From Diadema setosum (lineage: Eukaryota > Echinodermata > Echinoidea > Diadematoida > Diadematidae): DNA of 64,000 bases. Both the position numbers and the translations under genes were made by a program. Where the stretch lies: positions 19,709,206 through 19,773,205 of the forward strand of contig NC_092693.1 in the NCBI RefSeq assembly GCF_964275005.1, read 5' to 3'. The notes under the pieces were generated by a model. That model had not been told where the DNA came from, made no database searches, and worked only from the letters and a program-made list of their open reading frames with translations. This document shows positions 4,512-62,334 of this stretch, piece by piece; position 1 is the first letter of the stretch; each line of letters begins with the position of its first letter.

Positions 4512-26311
<21,800 letters not shown>

Positions 26312-35095: not shown

Positions 35096-36285
35096 TATCC
35101 AGCAGGGACAGCACTGAAATTTTAAGAATTCATGACTTTTCAATCAATTGTCTGGCTTTTCCTCAAACTTTCAGTAATGTGGTCTACGTACTAAGTATTG
35201 CTGCTTTCAATAAATCCACATTTTTATATCTGGGTTTTGTTCCCTTGAAAAATGCACACTATAAATTGGAGTACGATTATGGCAATATCCATCCACAAGC
35301 TGGCGCTGTTCAGTAATTGTTGGCAGAGATACATGTGTCGGTGGGTCAAAAAGTGTCAAAAGTCTCGGCCGTCGATCCACATCACGTTTTCTTTCCAAAA
35401 ATGCTGAAATAAAACTGGAACATTCATAAAAGACTAGCTTTGCCTTGCAATCCTGTTAAAGATCGTGTAGTTGCTGGTTTATTTTCTCATTTACTGATCA
35501 AATCATTGATAAAATCCAAGTGTGAAGTTAAAAGGGGGGGGGGGAACTCTGTCGCTCCCGCAATCCCCCCCCCCCCCACACACACACACACGTACTACAC
35601 GACAGTAGTACAGTACGCATGCTGCGCTCGTACAGATGAGTTAGATGCCTTCCTGTTCGCCTGTGCTGTGTTAATAAGGGTAAGAAACTGTAAATGACTC
35701 AACTGCTGCGTGAGAAAACTGTGTGTGGTCTAATATCCCATACATCGCGATCAATATTAGCCCATTTTTAGTAAGTAAACTATTAGTGCATGTATGCTTG
35801 TTGATCTCATTTACCGAGGAAGTTGCCAATCCAAGCAAAAGTACGTCGACAAGCGAGTCGAAGAGAGTCAGTCCCGTGCATGCATTATTGTGTTAGTGCA
35901 ATCACTGTCTCGGATCTCACTCGATTTTATTGGTCCCAATCACTGTCGGTAAAGTTACGCTTTTCCGGATCGTGTTTTTTTTCCCACAAATTCTCTGTGT
36001 GTGGTTCCAAACCCTTACTGCTGTAGTTTATTGTTGTAGCTGTAATTAATTCATTCCATATTGTCTAGGTCTAAATTTATTATAAATTCGGGGGGGGGGG
36101 GGGAGGGTTGAGTGAGAGTGAATCAGTCTGACACCCTCACAGTCACAGATACACTGTCGCTAAGCATCTTTGCTTCAGGACTCGCATTTCGCATGCATGC
36201 TAGCTCCACACAATGCACTGGAGGTAGGTTTTACTTGCACCATGTAAATATTTGCACAGCCATCTACCAGCATGACTAGCCCGAC

Positions 36286-36319
36286 CAGACGCTGTTACGC
36301 TATGCGAAAACAGCGTCTG
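36286..36319. other. Perfect 11-bp inverted repeat (hairpin) upstream of the PIGN promoter
   Basis: CAGACGCTGTT and AACAGCGTCTG are separated by 12 nt. The preceding CCCGACCAGACGC recurs near 36692 as CCCGACCAGACGCC, on the other side of the predicted factor sites. The role is unknown. Confidence 0.6.
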
Positions 36320-36539
36320 ACGAGCGCGGCATGCAGCCTCAAAGTGAGGAACCTCAGCACAACTACAAAACTTAGGAAAATGTATACTTTTCTCCTTTAA
36401 ACAGAATACTTTACTCACGTTAAATGCATGTTTCTATTACAGAAGAATAGTTCGCCACACCGGGTCCATGGAGACCACTTGCGATAAGTCCGTGGAACAA
36501 ATAAATGACACTTTCTGGTGCAATTCCTGACCGTCAGGC

Positions 36540-36876
36540 TTCGTCATTGCAGGATTCAAAATGGCGCCTTGACTTATGCGCATGCGTGACCGGAAGTGCT
36601 CCAGAGCGAGCGGCGGCGTGTGCGTTGAAAGTGTTGAACAAACCTTGGCGTCTGCTACACAATAACCGTGGTATGGAGCTCAATGCTCCTCGCCCGACCA
36701 GACGCCAGCCGCCGCCAAGCCCAGTACAGTTTATAGCTGTATACTAGTAACCGTGCTTGCGCTGCTTGAGTGTAGCAGCATGGTCGACAGCGCGACCTTT
36801 TGAAAGGGCATTCACATCACGTGACCACCCGATATCTAAACTTGGCCTGGCGTGAAAGATTGTGTACCGTGTGGAC
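36540..36876 (+). promoter_or_regulatory. Probable housekeeping promoter of PIGN
   Basis: Within about 45 bp lie AAAATGGCG (36558-36566, YY1-like), TGCGCATGCG (36577-36586, NRF1-like) and ACCGGAAGTG (36589-36598, ETS/GABP-like). TCACGTGA (36817-36824) is a USF/TFE-type E-box. The stretch has more CpG than its surroundings, lacks an obvious TATA box, and leads to a short exon with a consensus donor. This combination is typical of broad housekeeping promoters. The transcription start is not determined. Confidence 0.6.
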
Positions 36877-36901
36877 ATGCTGGATATGATGATCAATTTC
36901 G
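36877..36901 (+). CDS. PIGN: Candidate first exon of PIGN (donor GTAAGT), possibly coding
   Basis: ATCAATTTCG is followed by the donor GTAAGT at 36902. An ATG at 36877 gives MLDMMINF and one extra base. Spliced to the acceptor at 42497, this reads [20 protein letters not shown], in frame with the conserved PIGN start at 42508. The exon may therefore add a 12-residue N-terminal extension or be only 5' UTR. The 5' limit of the exon lies upstream and is unknown. Confidence 0.45.
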
Positions 36902-37496
36902 GTAAGTTTCATTACGTACATTTGAATACTGATAGCATCAGATGTAGAATGGAGTCAAAAGGGGCCTGAGCTTTCGATCCTAGCAGAATCTTCGTCAGAG
37001 GCAAAATGACAAACATGCAGGGAAAGCAATCACATATAAGGACTTTACACAACAAGAACAGACAGGGACAAGCTGGGTACACAGAACAAAGAAACAAAGG
37101 AGAGGGAGGTCATGGGCAAGGAGCCCAACAGGTAAAAGGAGGGGGATTAAAGCAGGAGGGTGGACAGACAATAGGCAGAGGAGAGGGGACAGACAAAAGG
37201 CAGAGGGGGTCAGTGATGATCATGAGGATCAAGGAGGCAACCAATGAAGAAAAAGGATGAATAGGGAGGCAACATCAAAGAAGATAGGGAACACCAGAGG
37301 GATAAAGAAAGGGAAAGAGTGAAAAAAGCAACAGCAGGAGGAAGGGAGGGGGGGGGGGGGGGGGCTGAGCAAACAGTGAGCCCTGAAAGGTGTACCAGGA
37401 GGAGGCAACAAGGGGAAGAAATCAAACATCAAAGTGTATACATATACACACACAGTAATAATAATGACAATGAAATAACAGTAATGAAAAGAATTA

Positions 37497-37559
<63 letters not shown>

Positions 37560-40500
37560 AGAGATATAAGAGGTGGTTAGTCATTTCCCTCCTGGATGTT
37601 GAGGCCATGGGGTTGGATGGTGTGAAGTCGTCTCATCCAGAGCTTCTCTCTGCTGGTTCTGACTGTGTCTGGACGAGTGCCTAAAGATTCAATGCCCTGT
37701 AGAGTCATATCAGTGATGGAATGATCGGGTAGATTGAAATGGTGGCCCACTGGAGTGTCGAGCTTGGCTGTGTTGACAGTAGATCTATGTCCGTAGAAGC
37801 GTCTTTTGAGTGTTGTCTTGGTTTCCCCAACATACTGGATTCTACAAATTCTGCAAGTGATGAGATACACGACATTAGTGGTGGTACAAGTGATGTTTCC
37901 CTTTGTGTGGTGAGAGAGGCCGGTAGAGTTGCTGGTGAAAGAGTCACTCTCATGGATGTGTATGCTACAAATGATGCACCTGCTGGCTGAACATTTGAAT
38001 GTGCCATGCTGTAAAGGAGAAGAATTGTCAGTGAGGGAGGGTACTTCAGCACGGACGATGAGATCCTTGAGGTTGTGGGGGCGCCGGTACGCCAGGATGG
38101 GAGTATCTGGGACGGCCTGGGAGAGACGATCAGAGGTGTGAAGGATATGGTGATTATCACGAAGGATATTGTGGAGAGAGGGTAGATTGGGATGGAAAGT
38201 GGTCACGAGTGGTATTCTGTCAGTGGTGTCCTGCTTGTTGGTTTTCGGTTTGAGAACTTCAGATCTGGGGAGAGAACGAACTTTGTTGATGGCTTGTTGA
38301 ACTCTCCTGGTACCGTAGCCCCTGGCTGCAAGATGTCTCTTCAGGTTCCTGGCATGGAAAGAAAACTCAGAATCCTCAGAGCAGATACGGCGAAGTCTGA
38401 GGGCTTGACTGTAAGGGATACTGGTTTTGCAGTGGCGGGGATGGCAGCTGGCTGAGTGAAGGTACTGATGGGTGTCTGTGGGTTTAGTGTAGAGAGTGGT
38501 GGTGACATGGTTAGACTCCTTTCTAACGGTGACATCGAGGAAGTTGGTCTCTTCTTGGGAGAAGTCGGAAGTGAATTTGATGGTTCTGTGGAAAGAATTG
38601 ATGTGGTCAATGAAAGTATGGAGGCTTTCTTCCTCCCTGGTCCAGATGAAGAAAACGTCATCGATGTAGCGCCACCAAATCCATGGACGACAGGGCGCTG
38701 AATCTAACATCTGCTGCTCTAGCTTGGTCATGAAGAGACAGGCGAAGGAAGGAGCCATCCGGGTACCCATTGCTGTGCCAGATACCTGTAGGTAGTGCTT
38801 GTCCATGAATGTGAAGTTGTTTTTCGTCAGTACATGTGACATGAGGGATTTGATGTCAGATATGGGGGGGTTGGAATGGCCGCTGCATGTCAAAGCCTCA
38901 CAGGAGGCTAGAATACCTTCATCATGGGGAATATTGGTGTAGAGAGAGGAGACGTCGAAAGTACCGATGATTGCTGTCTCGGGTATCTGGTCCTTGATGT
39001 CATCGAGCTTCCTGAGAAAGTCTGGTGTGTCATGAATGTAGGAGGGTGCGAGTGAGACAAGAGGTTTAATGTGGTGATCAACAAAGAGGGAAATGTTCTC
39101 TGTTGGGGAACCATTTCCAGAGAGGATGGGACGACCAGGATTGCCAGGTTTGTGGATCTTGGGGAGGAGATAAAATCGGGCAGGTTTGGCATTAACGGGG
39201 GAGAGAAATTTGTGAGCCTTCTTGGTGAGGTGTTCATGTTCCTTCATGTCATCGAGTGTCGACTGGATCTGTTGGGAGAAATTATCTGTGGGATCAAAGT
39301 CAAGAGGTGTGTAGTGGGAAGGATTGCGGAGATGTTTCATGGCTTCATCGATGTACTGCTGGCGGTCCATTACTACAACAGCTGATCCTTTGTCTGCGGG
39401 CTTGATGATGATGTCCGACCTGTTTTTGAGAGATGAGAGAGCCTGGCGCTCTTCCTTTGGGAGATTGTCATGTGATGCAATGTCGAGGGTATCTGCGGAG
39501 TGGACTTGAGATGAGACAGCTTCGATGTACGTTTCCAGGGAGGGAACTCTATTCTTGGGGGGAATCCATGAGCTTTTTTGATGAAAGGGCTCAGGAGCAG
39601 AAGGGGGTTCATCGAGAAAAAACTCTTTGAGGCGTAACCTGCGGTAGAAAGAAGAGAGGTCTTGGCTGAGTGCTATCTGATCGACCTTGGGTGGAGTGGG
39701 GCAAAACTTGAGACCTTTTGAGAGAAGAGACGTTTCTGCTTGAGAAAGGGGAGAAGAAGAAAGGTTAACGACAGAAGTGGAGGATACATCAGTGGATGTG
39801 GTGTGTCGCCTGAATCTGTTAGACCGTTGACGTTTCTTCGTGAAGTTGCCTATTTTCTTGTTCCTGCGAGCAGTGAGTTCAGACACATGTTTTGAGAGAC
39901 AAGATTCAATTTCATCATTGTATTTGAGCCACTGGGTGTCGGTGCAGCAAGAGCGAAGTTCACTCTCCAGTCTGTCGATGTCAGCTGAAGAGGAAGTGAG
40001 AGAGGCGGTACACTGTTCGGAGAGAATGTTAATCAAGCGGATGGAAGCTCCACGTAGAGTCTGGTTCCAGCGTTTCCGTAGTTCAGGCGAGAGTGTTCCA
40101 AGAGCTGGAGTGCAGTGGAGTTGGAGGCCTGCGGGTATCATGCGGTTGAGGGAGTAGAATCTGTAATTATCCTGGTGAAATGAGAATCTGAGGGCCTTGA
40201 GCTTGGTTTTCCTCAGTTGATGAAAAAGAGATAGATGGTTGGCCATGGTAGGCAGAGGACAGAGAAGAACAATGATAGCCAAACAAGGGAAGGAGAAATA
40301 CATAACCTGTCAGAATAGAGGGAAATTCAAAAAAGGAAACAAGAGAGACCTGTAAGGCGAATAAACCAAAGGAAAAAAGGTGAGTACAGTCGGTCAATGT
40401 ACAGGCCAACCTGTGCTAAGCAGAAAAGTGAGTGGAGAGAAAAGATAAAGGGAGATGAGACAAGCTCAGAGACAAAGGCACGGAACTGAAGAGAAAAATA

Positions 40501-43500
40501 ACAAGGACGGAGACAAACACCTGAAAAGAAAGTAAGAAATATGTTACAAACAAATACAACACTGTAGAAACAAAGATACTACAAGTCGAGAAGTGGGAGG
40601 GAAACAGGGCAAGGAAGGAGACTGAACTGGAACAAAGCAATAAAACAGTTAAAACAATTAAAACAGAACAGAGAAGACAAAAAGGATAAGGAGGATCACG
40701 TGGGCGTGATGCAACAGCAGAGAATGAACTTAATGTAGCAAAAAAAGCTGCCGAAAACTGCTTATCCAATAAGGGCGAGCCAATGGAGTAAAATGGAGTC
40801 AAAAGGGGCCTGAGCTTTCGATCCTACATTAGCATCAGATGTAGAGTAAATATTGAAGAGTATACTCGATGAGTTTGAGGTGACAAAAATGATCGTAAGT
40901 ATCAAAAGTCAAAGCTATCGTGATACGATTACGTCGCTCTCCTAGTGGTTGGTGGTCGCGCTCGTACAGCCCTGTCGCGACGTACCATGTACAGCGACTG
41001 GGCTGTGTATAGTTAAGCATGACCAGCTAGCTTCATATAGTCTAGACTCTATAAGGAGTCTATGAGTCTATGCAAGATTCATCCTTGATCCTTGATGACC
41101 TAGCGACCTTGGCATGGCAGTTGAGTTATGGCTTCAAGCCATCATATCCAGAATTGGACTTTGCTGAGTACTGACGTAGATGTAGATATGAGTCTATGAC
41201 GTCTGAGCCTGTAAATGCCAGAGCTAGACAGACCTAAAAGCAAACTACCCATAATTCAATTTATATCGCTTTCCAAGATTTGACTGCCGGCTACATATAA
41301 AAGTAAACCTATGCATTTTCATGTGGTTGAATTTTGGCACCGGAGGTTGAACCTTGGTGCAGGTTTTTAAGTAATTCACAGTCAAATCATGTATAGAATA
41401 AATTCTAGTCATACTAGTCTAGCATCTTGAGATATTTAGCCTGGCTTGCCAACCCCTGAACAAATGTTCATATAAATTTTAAGCTTCAGGACTTCTGTAG
41501 CTCATTTTTAGGTATAAAATGTATAAACAACAAAGATTCACAAATGTATACTGTGTGAGTACAAAAATCAAATAACACACGTCTCTTAATCCAGTAAAAT
41601 ATGTGCTTTGCAACTCAGAAAAATATTGCATTTGTGATGACTCAAGCAGTTGTGGATCATGTAACCTGTTGGTTAAGTGTTGCCTGGCAAAAAATTGGGA
41701 ATAAACTATGATTTTTAGTAATGACAGTTCACAATTAAAAGCCAAATAAAGGTATTAAGACAGCAAACCTTAACTGATTCTGATGATTTCCTGGTTGGGC
41801 AGCTGCAAGGTTCCACCTTTTGAGCTTTGTGTGCAGCTGAAAATGCCACAGAGTAAACATACATTGTATGAAAAGTGAAATAGTGTTACGTGTTCTCCCC
41901 TGTGATAGACTTACAATTGTGGATGACCCAACTATAGCAACCTGAAGATTAATGTTTCTGAATGGTATTTGAAAGTTTGGGTATGTATACCAACATTCAC
42001 CTGAATGTTATATATTCAGTAAGAACAGAAAGGGGTGGTCCATATGGTTGAATAGATCATGAAACACTTTCCCTTTCTGTGAACTGCTTCAGTTCAAATT
42101 TTTTGGGTCAAATATTAACAGTGTTGATTTAATGTTAAATGCCAATATTTTTGTATATGTGTCTGAGTGTCTGTTTTCTTGCTGGGTAAAATGTATACCT
42201 CTAGCAAAGATCCTAGTGTAGTGCCTTGTACAAATCAAGAGTTTCATCATAAAATGAGTTCAGTCCTTTCTTGTCAATTTGAGATATTTGCAATTCAACC
42301 TGCTTGGGAAAAAAAAAAAGGTTACTAAGGAAATGTAGGATATTTTCAATCATAACTCTCAGAATATTCCTTGTTATGCAACAAGTGAGGTATCATTGGA
42401 AAGGTTCTATTTTGCTCTGTCTGATGGTGGACTTACTTTAAAACATTTGAAAATGTTACCCATTTTGCGATCATACTCTTCATATGTTTCTGGCAGAATG
42501 TGCCATCATGAATCTGATGCTCGTGGTTGTCGGGTTCGTCGTCCATCTCATCCTGTTCGCCTCCATCTTCGACATCTACTTCACGTCCCCTCTTGTCCAC
42601 GGCATGACCCCGTATACCACGCCCCACGAGCCGCCAGCCAAGAGACTCGTCCTGTTCGTGGCTGATGGCCTTCGAGCTGATAAGCTGTTTGAACTCAATG
42701 AAGAGGGGAGGACAAGGGCTCCCTATTTGAGGTATGGCTCAACTAATTTGTATACTGTTAGAGTGTATGTGTGTGAGAGTAATTTTAGTGGTTGGCTAGG
42801 TAAGATGAGATTTATAATTCAACAGAATAAAGACATTAAGCAGTGGTACATATAACAAGCAAATATATTTGCATGCTTTTATTTTTACATTAGCTTGTGG
42901 TTGCACAAAATGCACAAAAATTTCCACACTGCAAAAATTTCCACTTCTGCAATATCTCATGAATTGTACTGAATGTGACAGTAGTTGTATTCAGCAGAAA
43001 AAGGCGAAGAATAATAAGGAGGGATACTGGTTTTCAGGCAAAAGCCTCAAATCAGGCCCTTGCTGTATCAGATTTCAGGCCCCTTTAATGTACACACTAG
43101 CTTTTCCTGTAGATAATTTTCAGGTCCTCTCTGTCATTCTAATTGGCATCCCTGAATAAAGAGAAGAGAGGATAACTAAAAAAGAAGGAGAGGGACGAGG
43201 GGGAGAACGAGATCTTCCCATTGAAACTGAAATGCTACATTTCACTGATTGTTGTTCTATGTTAATGTATACCATTCTGTCAAAATGAGTCAAGACTTGC
43301 ACACAGTGTTCCATCATTCTTTGCATATATTGTTCTCACCAGCTTGAGACTGACCCCATTGAAAGGTTGTATGCGTCATGCGCAGCATGCAAATGATGAA
43401 CAGTTGAGCGGTCAGTAGGAATTGTGTGCATATTGTAAACTATGGAATTGCTTTACCCACAAGGCACAGCCGTGAGGGTGTTGTGTAGACTATCTGTAGT

Positions 43501-59700: not shown

Positions 59701-60502
59701 TACATGTGCGTGACGTGGGCAGCGAGAAAATCAAACTGTCACACATATGTTGATGCAAGAATATTGGCAGACGTCCACTCTTGTTGCACATGGGTCCAAC
59801 GATAAAAAGCATCCCATGTTATGATAACAGGGCTGGTGCTTTGGTTTCTGCGGTTTTAAGTGTATGTCATGGCCGTTAATCGTCTCCTTTGTTTCAGACA
59901 GTTATGGGCGTGATTGACCTTAACGATCATTGAGAAGAGAGCACGCTGTTTCGCACCATATATGGCGATAACCTTGATGCTTTCGGTGTGATGACCAGAA
60001 AAAAAGAAGAAAGAAAATAGGATGGAGAAAGAAATCAAGAAAGCTTATGTGTGTCGGTGTTTAGGTGAACAAAGCTAACTGGATTTTGGGTATTAATTTT
60101 CACTAGGTTATTAGCTATGACACTGCATTTGATGTTCAACAATGAATATACTTGTACTTGGAGAAAGGGAAAAAATGGAGTGTCAGTAAACAGGGATACA
60201 ATGCATGAGTCATGCGGTCTGACATTTTCGCCAGAGGCAGGATCCAAGTGTTCGTGCCAAGGACGATGCCCTCTACCAGGAATGATTTTTATCTCTCGAT
60301 TGATAGGTGGGATGTGTTCCGCCAATCATTCCGGGCCATCGCGGCGAGGTACAGCTGGCAGAGGGTGGCGGCCGCGGCGGTGCTGGGTCTGGTTGCCATA
60401 GAAACGCTCGTGTTGAGCCTCTTCCACCGGGAGGTGATCTCGCTCGGACTTCTGGGAGTGGCGGTGTGGCCGCTGTGCAGCGAGCAGAGGGGCAGAAGCA
60501 AG
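36877..60502 (+). CDS. PIGN: PIGN, GPI ethanolamine phosphate transferase 1 (3' partial, continues beyond window)
   Basis: Recognised exons are a candidate first exon ending 36901, then 42497-42731 (ATG at 42508), 44045-44166, 45033-45131, 45478-45584, 46488-46743, 47493-47609, 48473-48666, 49198-49332, 51788-51867, 53238-53489 and 60307-60502. From 42508 they join in frame to 594 residues, about the first two thirds of a protein that is 931 residues in human. PIGN sits in the ER membrane and transfers ethanolamine phosphate from phosphatidylethanolamine to the first mannose of GPI precursors. Seen: an N-terminal membrane segment (about 4-22), then an alkaline-phosphatase-fold domain with D53 (FVADGLRAD), T93 ([10 protein letters not shown], the expected nucleophile), D215/H219 (LDTNGHSH) and D263/H264 (TADHGMTDW) as metal ligands, then the start of the multi-spanning C-terminal part. 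All key residues are present. Confidence 0.95.
36949..36982 (-). repeat. 3' copy of the 34-bp direct terminal repeat of the Penelope-like element
   Basis: It is identical to 40793-40826 at all 34 positions. In element orientation it begins TAGGATCGAAAGC and ends CTTTTGACTCCAT. This copy forms the second half of the hammerhead-like motif and directly abuts the target duplication. Confidence 0.95.
36964..37002 (-). ncRNA. Compact hammerhead ribozyme-like motif of the Penelope-like element
   Basis: Read on the minus strand, the 39 nt divide into GCCU (stem I), CUGACGA (core), A, GAUUC-UGCUA-GGAUC (stem II and loop), GAAA (core), GC, UC (cleavage expected after this C, between 36968 and 36967) and AGGC (stem I). 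Stem III is reduced to a single possible A-U pair closed by GC. Small hammerhead variants with minimal stem III are known from Penelope-like elements and are thought to work as dimers. The additional A after CUGACGA departs from the textbook core. Activity is inferred, not shown. Confidence 0.75.
37503..37557. repeat. (AT)n microsatellite in the 3' region of the Penelope-like element
   Basis: About 55 bp of perfect AT dinucleotides lie just beyond the end of the reverse transcriptase ORF. The perfect repeat fits a young insertion and is probably variable between individuals. Confidence 0.95.
37577..40303 (-). CDS. Penelope-like reverse transcriptase with C-terminal GIY-YIG endonuclease (908 aa)
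   Basis: The frame is open for 908 codons; a second Met ([11 protein letters not shown]) 20 codons in may be the real start. The protein copies element RNA into the target site. Residue positions are approximate. RT signatures: [20 protein letters not shown], motif [20 protein letters not shown] (about 445-460), motif [17 protein letters not shown] (about 508-520) and motif [11 protein letters not shown] (YIDD about 545-548), then TNFLDVTV. A Cys cluster (CSASRCIIC) precedes the nuclease domain, which shows VVYLITC (about 810) and [17 protein letters not shown] (about 823-838), the GIY-YIG core with its Arg and His. C-terminal placement of the nuclease fits canonical Penelope families and excludes the permuted Naiad/Chlamys type. 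Catalytic residues look intact. Confidence 0.93.
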   Translation of the reverse strand: MYFSFPCLAIIVLLCPLPTMANHLSLFHQLRKTKLKALRFSFHQDNYRFYSLNRMIPAGLQLHCTPALGTLSPELRKRWNQTLRGASIRLINILSEQCTASLTSSSADIDRLESELRSCCTDTQWLKYNDEIESCLSKHVSELTARRNKKIGNFTKKRQRSNRFRRHTTSTDVSSTSVVNLSSSPLSQAETSLLSKGLKFCPTPPKVDQIALSQDLSSFYRRLRLKEFFLDEPPSAPEPFHQKSSWIPPKNRVPSLETYIEAVSSQVHSADTLDIASHDNLPKEERQALSSLKNRSDIIIKPADKGSAVVVMDRQQYIDEAMKHLRNPSHYTPLDFDPTDNFSQQIQSTLDDMKEHEHLTKKAHKFLSPVNAKPARFYLLPKIHKPGNPGRPILSGNGSPTENISLFVDHHIKPLVSLAPSYIHDTPDFLRKLDDIKDQIPETAIIGTFDVSSLYTNIPHDEGILASCEALTCSGHSNPPISDIKSLMSHVLTKNNFTFMDKHYLQVSGTAMGTRMAPSFACLFMTKLEQQMLDSAPCRPWIWWRYIDDVFFIWTREEESLHTFIDHINSFHRTIKFTSDFSQEETNFLDVTVRKESNHVTTTLYTKPTDTHQYLHSASCHPRHCKTSIPYSQALRLRRICSEDSEFSFHARNLKRHLAARGYGTRRVQQAINKVRSLPRSEVLKPKTNKQDTTDRIPLVTTFHPNLPSLHNILRDNHHILHTSDRLSQAVPDTPILAYRRPHNLKDLIVRAEVPSLTDNSSPLQHGTFKCSASRCIICSIHIHESDSFTSNSTGLSHHTKGNITCTTTNVVYLITCRICRIQYVGETKTTLKRRFYGHRSTVNTAKLDTPVGHHFNLPDHSITDMTLQGIESLGTRPDTVRTSREKLWMRRLHTIQPHGLNIQEGND
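40304..40792 (-). other. CT-rich 5' leader of the Penelope-like element
   Basis: In element orientation this region is rich in C and T and carries a 128-codon open frame (40416-40802) of low complexity (Ser, Phe, Leu). It does not resemble a known protein and is more likely leader sequence than a gene. Confidence 0.5.
40793..40826 (-). repeat. 5' copy of the 34-bp direct terminal repeat of the Penelope-like element
   Basis: It is identical to 36949-36982. Here it lacks the first half of the hammerhead-like motif, so the element's 5' end starts inside the loop of stem II. Confidence 0.95.
42497..42731 (+). CDS. PIGN: PIGN exon: conserved start, signal-anchor, first metal-binding Asp
   Basis: Eleven bases after the acceptor comes ATG (42508), giving [20 protein letters not shown], then [15 protein letters not shown]. 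Human PIGN starts with a similar hydrophobic segment and [32 protein letters not shown] contains the first active-site Asp. The exon ends in phase 2. Confidence 0.97.
42732..44044 (+). other. PIGN intron, no recognised feature
   Basis: AT-rich intron of 1.3 kb with a short (CA)n run near 43580 and a T-rich acceptor ending TTTTGTGTGTGTAG. No exon or known repeat was seen. Confidence 0.8.
44045..44166 (+). CDS. PIGN: PIGN exon: catalytic Thr
   Basis: It encodes [20 protein letters not shown], then [13 protein letters not shown]. The Thr in [10 protein letters not shown] (T93) is the expected nucleophile by analogy with alkaline-phosphatase-fold transferases. The human segment is nearly identical. 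Confidence 0.98.
44167..45032 (+). other. PIGN intron, nothing notable
   Basis: AT-rich, with a GTTT repeat near 44470. The acceptor is ATCTTTCTGCAG. Confidence 0.85.
45033..45131 (+). CDS. PIGN: PIGN exon: ENPVEFDS...[14 protein letters not shown]
   Basis: It encodes [20 protein letters not shown] and [12 protein letters not shown], matching human PIGN almost residue by residue. Phase 1 at both ends. Confidence 0.98.
45132..45477 (+). other. PIGN intron, nothing notable
   Basis: This is 346 bp of AT-rich intron without recognised elements. Confidence 0.85.
45478..45584 (+). CDS. PIGN: PIGN exon: GASGDHV...LDTWVFD
   Basis: It encodes [20 protein letters not shown] and [10 protein letters not shown]. 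Human PIGN has ASGDHVYTYSY and LDTWVFDNVK here. Ends in phase 0. Confidence 0.96.
45585..46487 (+). other. PIGN intron, nothing notable
   Basis: AT-rich intron of 0.9 kb; no repeat family recognised. The polypyrimidine tract before the acceptor (GAACATGACAG) is weak. Confidence 0.8.
46488..46743 (+). CDS. PIGN: PIGN exon: metal-binding DTNGHSH and ADHGMTDW motifs
   Basis: It encodes [20 protein letters not shown] and [13 protein letters not shown]215, H219, D263 and H264 are the expected metal ligands of the active site. The exon ends in phase 1 with donor GTGAGA. Confidence 0.98.
46744..47492 (+). other. PIGN intron with a two-copy tandem duplication
   Basis: Most of this intron is the duplicated unit at 47035-47414. 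Nothing coding is visible. Confidence 0.85.
47035..47414 (+). repeat. Two-copy tandem duplication, about 187-bp unit
   Basis: AAACTTATCAAGACGTATTC at 47035 recurs as AAACTTATCTAGATGTATTC near 47223. Both copies share ACACTCTTCAAACAATTTGA or a close variant, AATCAAATTTTGTGATATTT and end near AGCTGTAA. Divergence is perhaps a tenth of positions. Confidence 0.9.
47493..47609 (+). CDS. PIGN: PIGN exon: [20 protein letters not shown]
   Basis: It encodes [20 protein letters not shown] and [10 protein letters not shown], parallel to [20 protein letters not shown] in human. It completes the catalytic domain's last metal-site region. Phase 1 at both ends. Confidence 0.98.
47610..48472 (+). other. PIGN intron largely occupied by a TTAA-flanked MITE
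   Basis: The fold-back element at 47630-48280 starts only about 20 bp after the splice donor. A T/G-run (about 48340-48387) follows. The acceptor is TTCGCTCTTGAACAG. Confidence 0.85.
47630..48280. mobile_element. T2/Kolobok-like TTAA MITE, second family (651 bp)
   Basis: TTAA at 47626-47629 is followed by AGGGGAATGATACCCAAATA, and the right end TATCACTCCCCT runs into TTAA at 48281-48284. Inner arms also mirror: TAGCAATATTAGTAGACCAC against CTACTAATATTGCTGCATTC. The ends fit TTAAAGGRR but the body differs from the family at 2410. Confidence 0.75.
48473..48666 (+). CDS. PIGN: PIGN exon: [24 protein letters not shown]
   Basis: It encodes [20 protein letters not shown] and [16 protein letters not shown], nearly identical to human PIGN. 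Ends in phase 0 at donor GTGAGT. Confidence 0.98.
48667..49197 (+). other. PIGN intron, nothing notable
   Basis: AT-rich with a short AG-rich run near 49070-49120. No repeat family recognised. Confidence 0.85.
49198..49332 (+). CDS. PIGN: PIGN exon: luminal linker
   Basis: It encodes [20 protein letters not shown] and [20 protein letters not shown], corresponding to [20 protein letters not shown]...ILRKARSYIKHRKFDE of human. Less conserved than the catalytic exons, but phase and position fit. Confidence 0.93.
49385..49525 (+). repeat. Dispersed repeat with CACTGGCATTCA core, copy 3
   Basis: The segment shares ATGAAACTTTCGCGAAATGC, CACTGGCATTCAATGCATTG and the end TTTCTGGTTTTGCAGT with the copy at 12745-12900. 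It begins about 50 bp after a splice donor. Confidence 0.65.
50622..50835. mobile_element. Fold-back MITE with GACAAGACCT-type ends, copy 2
   Basis: The left end CATATTGTCCCTGGGGTAAC, AAGACCTTGTAT is mirrored by the right end, which reads CATATGGTCCCGGGGGTGAC on the other strand. The ends are related to the element at 23459-23714. Confidence 0.65.
51788..51867 (+). CDS. PIGN: PIGN exon: [11 protein letters not shown]
   Basis: It encodes [17 protein letters not shown], matching [17 protein letters not shown] in human. This is the junction between the luminal domain and the membrane part. Phase 0 in, 2 out, donor GTAAGT. Confidence 0.98.
51868..53237 (+). other. PIGN intron carrying a Helitron-like tandem-repeat element
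   Basis: The element at 51919-52749 begins about 50 bp after the donor and takes up most of the intron. The rest is AT-rich with no further feature. Confidence 0.8.
51919..52749 (+). mobile_element. Helitron-like (HINE/Helentron-type) element, second family
   Basis: The 5' end has TTATACCCCCG (51919-51929) inside the palindrome TATACCCCCGGGGTATA, then GGGCGGTCGGGCGGTC repeats. The core is about five diverged units of roughly 110-190 bp built on TTGCGTCGCGAACT, TGAAACTTGGTACAGATG and GTTGCCATGGTAACGGCATA. The 3' end has CGGAGGTATAA (52714-52724, inverse of the 5' end with one mismatch), the hairpin GTCGCTGTAGCGAC (52728-52741), ATTT and CTAG. Hairpin plus CTAG fits a Helitron 3' end. The family call is inference. 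Confidence 0.65.
53238..53489 (+). CDS. PIGN: PIGN exon: first C-terminal membrane segments
   Basis: It encodes [17 protein letters not shown], then [20 protein letters not shown] and [17 protein letters not shown]. Human PIGN has FVGWISYASLLIIKSH, FVAIGILVAFFLLIQACPW and YVYGLLPLPIWYAVLRE. Two or three hydrophobic spans are visible. Phase 2 in and out. Confidence 0.96.
54116..54358. mobile_element. TACTGTATACGCC MITE (TA-flanked)
   Basis: TACTGTATACGCC at the left is perfectly inverted as GGCGTATACAGTA at the right (54346-54358). ATATTTC/ATATTTA-type sequences continue the pairing. The 243-bp size and TA ends fit a Tc1/mariner-like MITE. Members or relatives occur at 709 and 62335. Confidence 0.75.
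55618..56206. mobile_element. Fold-back element with AAAGTTAGTCT arms, copy 2
   Basis: The left arm AATCAAAAGTTAGTCTGC, then CAGTGAAAATTTTGTCAAAT and TTATGAAGTTTCACTAATTT, is mirrored by the right arm: on the other strand GTTCAAAGTTGGTCTCAC, TAGTGAAAATCTCATTGAAA and TTATGAAAATGTGAATTTTT. GCAAATATGTGAGCTGGTGA against GCAAATGGGTGAGCTGATG continues the pairing. Same family as 33497-34032. Confidence 0.7.
58292..58985 (+). repeat. Long polypurine tract (GAGGA/GAGGAAG repeats), about 690 bp
   Basis: The plus strand is almost only A and G with scattered T and rare C, built on GGAGGAGGAAGAGGA units. The complementary Ser/Pro/Leu-rich 280-codon frame on the minus strand is a by-product of the repeat and not a gene. 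Polypurine tracts of this length can form triplex (H-DNA). Confidence 0.9.
60307..60502 (+). CDS. PIGN: PIGN exon: further membrane segments
   Basis: It encodes [20 protein letters not shown], then [18 protein letters not shown]. Human PIGN has [20 protein letters not shown] and YRYMLTAGLTAFAAWPFL. The exon is strikingly GC-rich against its introns. It ends in phase 0 at donor GTACGT; the next exon is outside the window. Confidence 0.93.
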
Positions 60503-62334
60503 GTACGTCCCATAATTGACACATTTTTCGCTGTAATCAAACGAAAAGAGGCCTCTCTCTCCCTTAAAAAAATTCTCACCCCAATGGAAAACTGCAGGGA
60601 ATTGAAATGGTTGGTGAACCAACTAGATGTCAGTCACATGCAGTCTTTGTTCATATCGACAATAAAAGAGAGGTAAAGATAAGAGATGAATATCCTTGAA
60701 TTGTGCTCCTGTTGTTGTTAAGCTGGTACATGAGATGAGTCCATGGAGCATCTGTATAGATGAGTTTATCCCACTTGCTATCGTCTCTGCCTTTTCCATT
60801 CCACATTTCTGTGGCAACACGATTCTGATGGGAGTGGATATTTGACACTGTCTGTGCCAGGGACCGTGGACAGTGTGTGCAACTCTCTGGAGTTATCTGT
60901 GGCAATCAGCACTCATATCGCACAAAGGGTTAAAGCAGTGTCACAGAGAACAGAAGGAGTTAAATGAATAGTGCTCAATCCACATTTACTGCTAAGGAAT
61001 GGTTAAAACTGGTATTTATCATAATTTGACCTTTATCAATTTTCTCCTTTCTAGAAAGCCTCTTTCCCTTCATGCTGTAGTTTTTGCCTTTTTGATGAAG
61101 GGTAAGCCTATTGAGGTGCTTGGGCAGTCGAGCTAATTCCTCAAACAATATCAAGGTTGAAAGGTTAAAAGCAGAGGAAAAGGCAGAGGTGATAATCAGG
61201 GGTGATGTATTCAGATTTTGAAGTTATGTTCCTCTCCAAGGATGACTTGACATCTTTGTCCTGTAGTTGGAGTTGTGTTTTGTGTGAGTCAGGCCAGTGG
61301 AATGATTGTGTACAGTTTCATTCTCGTCAGTACGTATTCATATTTGTGGTGTCGAGAGGCCAAAATGTCCCAAAATAAATCGTGAAGACAGTTTGCACAT
61401 TAAAATGAGAGCTACCGGTATATCTTACACCCCGGTGAGCACACATGTCATTGGAAGTTTGTGTCGATGAATATTCTGTAAAAGTATGGTACCATGTTGT
61501 GTGAAGGGATTGTGAAGCATACCATAGCTTTTGCCAACCTGCCTATTTTGGGTCGCTCTTTTCCATATTCATATCAAAAGCATGGGTGAACGCAACAGCC
61601 AACAAAGATGCTCGTGGAATGTGAGGAGCTTGAAAAATGAGAAAATTCATGTGAAACATGGGCTTCCAAAAAAATCCCCACTTGTAAATTTCCATGTGAT
61701 GTGAAGCTACTATCAGCCAGCTTGGGGGGGGGGGGGGGGGGGAGGGTGGGGGAGGAAGGGTTGTAAAATCATTGCCCCCAAAAAGATGGAATCTATCAGC
61801 AACAAGGTATATTAAGAAGAATATTTTCCTGTGAGGGACTCGGGGGAACTGAATTTCTAGAATGTATATCTTTTTTCCCTTTTTTTTTTTGTGAGTCACT
61901 TAAGAGCCTGATGCCTTTTAAGCTATGTTGTCTGGCTATACTGCCAACCAGTGCCAAGGGCTATCAGTCCCATGCAGTGGTAATTGATGATGGCAATCAG
62001 TTGGCTGTAGTGTTGGGTAATAAATTTGCCCAATTGTGATAGGGTCAGTGGACTCTTTATCAGCACCAAATCATTTTGTTCCCCCTCCTTTTTTTTTTTT
62101 CTTGATGCGTTTGCTAGTCTGCAAATGGATTACGGTTATCTGGAAAATTAGTTCGGGAAGTGTTGTGTTTGAACATGTGATATCAAGGTGCTTGTGCGAG
62201 CTCGTCTGACTTATGTGAGATTTTTTTATTAACCAAACCTTAGAGTATTGAACAAAGAGCAGTAATATTTGCTCCATGAGTGTGCATACTTGTAGCCCCT
62301 TTTAAAGTTTTATCATACCTTCAAACCTGTTTAA

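Follow-up and report, generated by a model that had tools for sequence, protein, structure and literature searches.

Penelope-like elements (PLEs) have been followed into their target in vitro for PAc, the endonuclease-bearing Poseidon element of the lizard Anolis carolinensis: the purified PLE cuts and extends both target strands, starting internally at two adjacent RNA sites that bound a tail, with the start site apparently alike on the top and bottom strands (PMC11167929). In the accessible portions of that report, the PAc hammerhead cleaves only with protein, its mutation was without effect on insertion in vitro, and the later steps of integration are described as yet to be validated. In the Penelope families of Adineta vaga, one of the inverted pLTRs optionally carries a tail, and the authors proposed self-priming (PMC3846280). 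Minimal type-I hammerhead motifs have been reported in PLE pLTRs, with their role given as unknown (PMC7761336). The asymmetry of the ends, a tail on one side, is already remarked upon in this earlier literature; a count of how strictly the two kinds of end are paired, or the use of such a count against fold-back, was not found in the openly accessible literature searched.

Here, a 3.88-kb PLE was analyzed within a 64-kb stretch of Diadema setosum DNA (the window), where it occupies 36949-40829 with its sense strand on the minus strand (Table 1). Like PAc, it has a single ORF with the reverse transcriptase followed by a putative GIY-YIG domain, a hammerhead motif, a tail delimited by what appear to be two neighbouring internal start sites, and partial tandems (PMC11167929). 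Unlike PAc, in which the hammerhead overlaps the ORF start, its predicted hammerhead cut precedes the first ATG by 508 nt when read in tandem register, and its tail is about 60 nt long versus 30-40 bp (PMC11167929). With the A. vaga families it shares pLTRs, an optional tail on one inverted pLTR, target duplications (8-10 bp in those families), and partial tandems, but those families are of very low copy number, compared with hundreds of 3' motifs here, and an Asn-rich stretch was not seen by eye in the present ORF (PMC3846280). The hammerhead motif resembles the minimal type-I PLE hammerheads thought to act as dimers, with a CUGANGA...GAAA core, a short stem I, and a stem III of two self-complementary bases that pair between two molecules only (PMC7761336); it lies beyond the reach of Rfam models.

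Table 1. Features of the element, its target, and the surrounding host repeat (positions in the window)
Feature	Position	Strand	Remarks
Host repeat holding the element	36269..41023		~850 bp without the element, non-coding, dispersed
Target-site duplication, left copy	36933..36948		TAGCATCAGATGTAGA; single copy in three paralogous empty sites
3' terminal repeat, 34 bp	36949..36982	-	End type A at the outer edge (sense ...TTTTGACTCCAT)
Minimal type-I hammerhead motif	36964..37002	-	Pattern match
Hammerhead stem I', AGGC	36964-36967	-	Stem III is GC, self-complementary; predicted cut 36968/36967
Hammerhead GAAA	36972-36975	-	
Hammerhead stem II/loop	36976-36991	-	
Hammerhead CTGACGA	36992-36998	-	
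Hammerhead stem I, GCCT	36999-37002	-	
(AT)26 tract, perfect, in 3' UTR	37505..37556		Length and purity vary among copies
ORF, 908 aa (889 aa from second ATG)	37577..40303	-	Open throughout
GIY-YIG endonuclease match, aa 811-842	37778..37873	-	Pfam GIY-YIG, below cut-off
Reverse transcriptase match, aa 426-576	38576..39028	-	Pfam RVT_1
5' leader	40304..40792	-	Opens with the ~60-nt tail (end type B) seen past the 3' end of other copies
5' terminal repeat, 34 bp	40793..40826	-	5'-truncated second copy of the unit end; starts inside hammerhead loop II
CTACAT, candidate B arm (6 nt) from the opposite target strand	40824..40829	+	Suggested by sequence match to B ends
Target-site duplication, right copy	40830..40845		TAGCATCAGATGTAGA, identical to left copy

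Identification of the element as Penelope-like was supported by the reverse transcriptase match and a sub-threshold GIY-YIG match, by the pLTR/partial-tandem layout, by the tail, and by inverted inserts with target duplications. As the original prediction had it, the 908-codon frame contains no stop; the reverse transcriptase was recognized by Pfam (RVT_1, E 2e-9, 37.8 bits versus a cut-off of 29.6), and the GIY-YIG match fell slightly below its curated cut-off (E 7e-4, 20.2 bits versus 22.6), which we count against the integration mechanism proposed below. YVG, R, H, and REKLW residues, read by eye against the motifs of such endonucleases, are presumably those of the GIY-YIG domain. A phmmer search of PDB sequences at E 0.01 gave 0 matches to the element protein, no relatives were found in viral and genome contig collections, and BLASTN and TBLASTN searches of the window for a second copy of the element returned short matches only. 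Elsewhere in the window, 20786-22903 and 60212-60676 look like host exons with putative ANKRD11/12-like and PIGN-like coding sequence.

Direct comparison bore out the identity of the two 16-bp target copies and of the two 34-bp terminal repeats, and the (AT)n tract was likewise without interruption, as (AT)26; a CAT at 40827-40829, which separates the 5' repeat from the right target copy, had been absent from the original prediction. The element sits within a dispersed host repeat bordered on either side by the 8-bp string AGCATGAC (36269-36276 on the left, 41016-41023 on the right), which looks like the repeat's own target duplication; a short scan found no terminal inverted repeat of the host repeat. 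Edge strings of 7-9 bp were seen by eye in two other host-repeat copies (L066 and L067). Three compared paralogous copies (L065-L067) cross the insertion point with one 16-bp copy, which proves the target duplication. A 36-nt uninterrupted target string occurred at 472 places in the assembly (at most 3 mismatches; control, 0), and the empty-site text suggested earlier for checking other individuals is not specific to this locus, the target being part of a dispersed repeat; outer anchors are needed.

The family was searched for across the 912.7-Mb assembly (102 contigs) that contains the window. A 193-bit Pfam match to bindin, a sea-urchin gene, indicates a sea urchin as host. A 28-nt 3' motif was matched at 750 places (at most 2 mismatches; 374 and 376 by strand) and its reversed control at 0 places, and on these 750 matches the family is large. 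From a whole-element search, 39 of 1,039 candidates were scored: the element under study and 38 other retrieved loci, named by L-numbers. The whole ORF was covered in 12 of the 39 (the element under study and L009-L019), of which 5 kept a 908- to 910-aa frame (the element under study, L009, L010, L011, and L014). Coding constraint acts on the family: dN/dS was 0.13-0.27 in 6 of the 8 copies compared with the element under study, the values of 0.89 (L009) and 0.49 (L018) coming from the closest pairs, with only 8 differences each. These two are the nearest long relatives (8/2,727 differences each), and shorter near relatives differed at 1/1,535 (L031) and 2/2,054 (L025) positions; the search for near-identical copies that had been recommended yielded sisters whose identity reaches 99.9% across 1.5 kb or more. 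Private to the element under study were 2 substitutions in 2,727 coding bases (other covering sequences per site, minimum 11 and median 27; 12 and 13 at the private sites). The claim of a very recent insertion held in that the element is young by its 2 private substitutions and near-identical sisters, which are a better mark of recency than the short identical ends. The evidence first offered for it was weak: the 34 + 16 = 50 identical bases limit divergence to only about 6% (95%, by our own arithmetic), and perfection of the AT tract is poor evidence of age because its length and purity differ among copies. A recent, coding-intact PLE is supported.

The copies were mapped onto a reference unit of 3,844 nt in the sense direction (U). 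The element under study begins within a preceding unit, at U3811, spans one entire further unit, and terminates at U3844. Overlaps of this kind were found wherever a copy exceeded one unit (8 of 39 loci, 34-1,059 bp), a pLTR/partial-tandem arrangement; the other seven overlapped by 86 (L017), 123 (L009), 142 (L010), 252 (L011), 517 (L019), 584 (L015), and 1,059 bp (L016), the longer values being BLAST extents that could be lower bounds. Many other copies among the 39 were 5'-truncated inside the ORF. The original description of terminal repeats much shorter than usual was a misreading, corrected by this variable overlap: its length differs from copy to copy, and the ends are the family's ordinary pLTR and 3' end. 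The 34 bp are one draw from a range of 5' truncations, made on a template that exceeds one unit, and are not a structural LTR. A distinct type of element with true short terminal repeats, as the identity of the two copies and their position flanking the whole element might imply, is extremely improbable, given a 34-bp overlap in 0 of the 38 other loci mapped, the longer overlaps of the seven, and the many truncations within the ORF, which speak against fixed short terminal repeats.

Read in the sense direction, the sequence GCCT-CTGACGA-AGATTCTGCTAGGATC-GAAA-GC-TC/AGGC (37002-36964, predicted cut at the slash) fits a dimer-type minimal type-I hammerhead, in which stem III would form only between two molecules. 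A search of the window found this pattern once, and 300 mononucleotide shuffles yielded it twice. An identical core was present in 41 of 55 BLAST hits (some of the remainder cover the tail only), and in 14 divergent 3' arms from 9 loci, not all independent, identity was 98.4% over the hammerhead versus 88.6% over the remaining 3' UTR (U3360-3780). Rfam covariance models gave no hammerhead match, only chance hits, and free co-folding of two cores produced a long intermolecular duplex and no hammerhead dimer, so that the motif is assigned by its pattern only. The stretch from the hammerhead through the two end sites described below folds less stably than its shuffles do on average (z +0.89; 167 of 200 shuffles at least as stable), which is counted against the mechanism. 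Three short two-armed inserts (L051, L052, and L058) were seen by eye to carry 2-3 tandem hammerhead cores (~45-50 nt) in one arm, as if the reverse transcriptase had jumped across the sides of stem I or had read a tiny circular RNA.

Outward 3' ends at the sampled loci were of two types. End A lies at about U3841-3844 (sense ...GACTCCAT), and end B lies at about U53-66 (...GCTACAT), after a ~60-nt tail from the start of the next unit. Measured from the predicted hammerhead cut, site A is 19 nt and site B about 79 nt further on, so the templates of these insertions were continuous across that hammerhead. The copies longer than one unit and the conserved hammerhead motif, along with the tandem cores of some short inserts, could also indicate a hammerhead-made circular RNA read more than once in place of a tandem-array transcript. 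We regard such a circle as rather unlikely, since partial tandem copies in the genome (L015, L016, and L019) could be transcribed, and hammerhead mutants did not affect insertion in vitro in the accessible account of PAc (PMC11167929).

The two types of end were paired within inserts, a pairing that is counted here in addition to what has been described for the A. vaga families in the accessible text of PMC3846280. By eye, 11 of the 39 loci were two-ended, 21 had one readable outward 3' end (11 A, including the element under study, and 10 B), and 7 were unscored, the end being lost or outside the retrieved stretch (L021, L034, L036, L040, L041, L042, and L046). All 11 two-ended loci combined one A-side with one B end, the A side of L043 being ~24 nt short; among all loci read, L047 and L055 were ~6 nt and 3 nt short of A. 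Eleven pairs were then added, L047 and 10 minus/plus neighbours within 7 kb not previously sampled, the 10 having been picked by eye among 100 of the 750 motif places. A script scored the resulting 22 two-ended inserts as 20 A+B and 2 A/A, with the qualifications that this motif script was written after the same ends had been read by eye and that it accepted a truncated A, so that L043 counted as A. An earlier script on the same 22 pairs gave 14 A+B, 2 A/A, and 6 unclassified, in which an end was truncated or the alignment extended into the target. The A/A cases, L057 (6-nt flank match) and L060 with L061 (5 nt), are without target duplication and may be neighbouring independent insertions, although their exclusion is post hoc.

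A fresh set of 27 loci was chosen with another search pattern before their ends were seen (37 places, 7 already sampled). By tail alignment, 13 of 13 two-ended inserts in this set were A+B and the other 14 loci were scored as one-ended. A cruder motif script called 9 A+B and 5 A/A on the same 27 loci, and the tail was found on one side of all 5 of its "A/A" inserts (scores of 52-105 versus 10-17 for A ends). Combined, 33 of 35 script-scored two-ended inserts were A+B, a total that leaves out L069, L073, and L093 (among those 14, yet A+B by the cruder script) and L068 (A+B by eye). Independent 50:50 choice of ends would give 20 A+B in 20 with a probability of about 1e-6. Flank strings common to both sides were 6-16 nt long in the 33 A+B inserts, and a cross-locus control gave flank matches of at least 8 nt in 16 of 462 pairings (first set) and 4 of 156 (fresh set); the 5 of 33 inserts with flanks of at most 8 nt (6-8 nt) are within reach of that control and are counted against the mechanism. 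The 33 of 35 suggest that both target strands prime reverse transcription, with each site used once.

The two arms of one insert differed at 0-4 positions over 427-486 nt in all 12 inserts with both 3' UTR arms, compared with median mismatches to other loci of 2-26. The insert's own second arm was the nearest in 6 of the 12 (most clearly in L043, 4 versus 14) and tied with another locus in 3 (L029, L044, and L045); in the remaining 3 (L014, L020, and L026) another locus was nearer, which is counted against the mechanism. In so young a family, such likeness is compatible with, but no proof of, a single RNA or source copy behind each insert. It would fit equally a single cDNA that folds back and copies itself into head-to-head arms, single-orientation copies being those without fold-back. 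Self-priming of this kind was favored for A. vaga on the strength of palindromes at inverted junctions (PMC3846280), and perfect or near-perfect palindromes were seen by eye in L047 and L054-L056. Yet a copied-back arm should repeat the end of the first arm, and in 33 of the 35 script-scored inserts the ends differ by the ~60-nt tail; fold-back is very unlikely to have produced them. As further observations on junctions, the arms of L047 meet in a palindrome beside a G-tract, and those of L079 and L094 are joined by non-element filler, which suggests a template switch to another RNA. A tRNA piece was considered for the L079 filler and dropped when a tRNA scan of both fillers found none.

The 5' junction of the element under study reads, in antisense, GATCCTA-CAT-target, and B ends elsewhere read ...GCTACAT-target. 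Because its 3' end is A, B is the predicted partner at this junction, and there are about even odds that CTACAT is a 6-nt B arm overlapping the long arm by a CTA microhomology. Only slightly less than an even chance attaches to CAT being non-templated filler in a single-armed insertion: by eye, the majority of single-orientation copies whose duplication can be read abut the target directly (for example, L009, L010, L018, L022, and L027), so the B arm rests on 3 extra nucleotides and a 3-nt microhomology, and a given 3-nt match has a chance of 1/64. Against filler, these nucleotides and the microhomology spell a B end, the very type predicted when the 3' end is A. An inverted stub at the 5' end of every single-orientation copy was rejected, as it fails for most by eye. 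At the 5' junction of L024, GGAGTGGGGCAAAAC is present twice, a small local re-copy.

We infer from these ends two priming events, their order, the form of the template, and the 6-nt arm, and put the probability of the resulting two-primer mechanism, an A arm and a short B arm on a template longer than one unit, at roughly 0.7. The GIY-YIG endonuclease would cut the two strands with a stagger of 16 bp. Reverse transcription, primed by one of them, would begin internally at site A on a template RNA longer than one unit, presumably a tandem-unit or circular transcript; the enzyme would copy the whole 3,844-nt unit and then 34 nt of the following one, halting within the hammerhead. The opposite target strand would be primed at site B and extended by only about 6 nt, and the two cDNAs would be joined at the 3-nt microhomology.

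For PLEs more broadly, we lean toward integration as a coordinated two-strand reaction in which each start site would be used once per event, A on one strand and B on the other, probably with both primers on the same RNA or RNA dimer and a used site closed to a second primer; full-length single-orientation copies, the element under study included, would be the limiting case, with one arm all but absent. The lizard PLE start sites, without a difference between strands in the accessible data of PMC11167929, are counted against such a two-site, two-strand model here.

The hundreds of family ends in this genome record the PLE integration reaction, and the pattern of their pairing, which is what the present analysis adds, makes a long-open question of PLE integration testable from genome data. 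Unlike ends within one insert offer a direct, falsifiable test of one-template, two-primer integration. If true, the two-primer model would account for the tail as well as for the variable pLTR.
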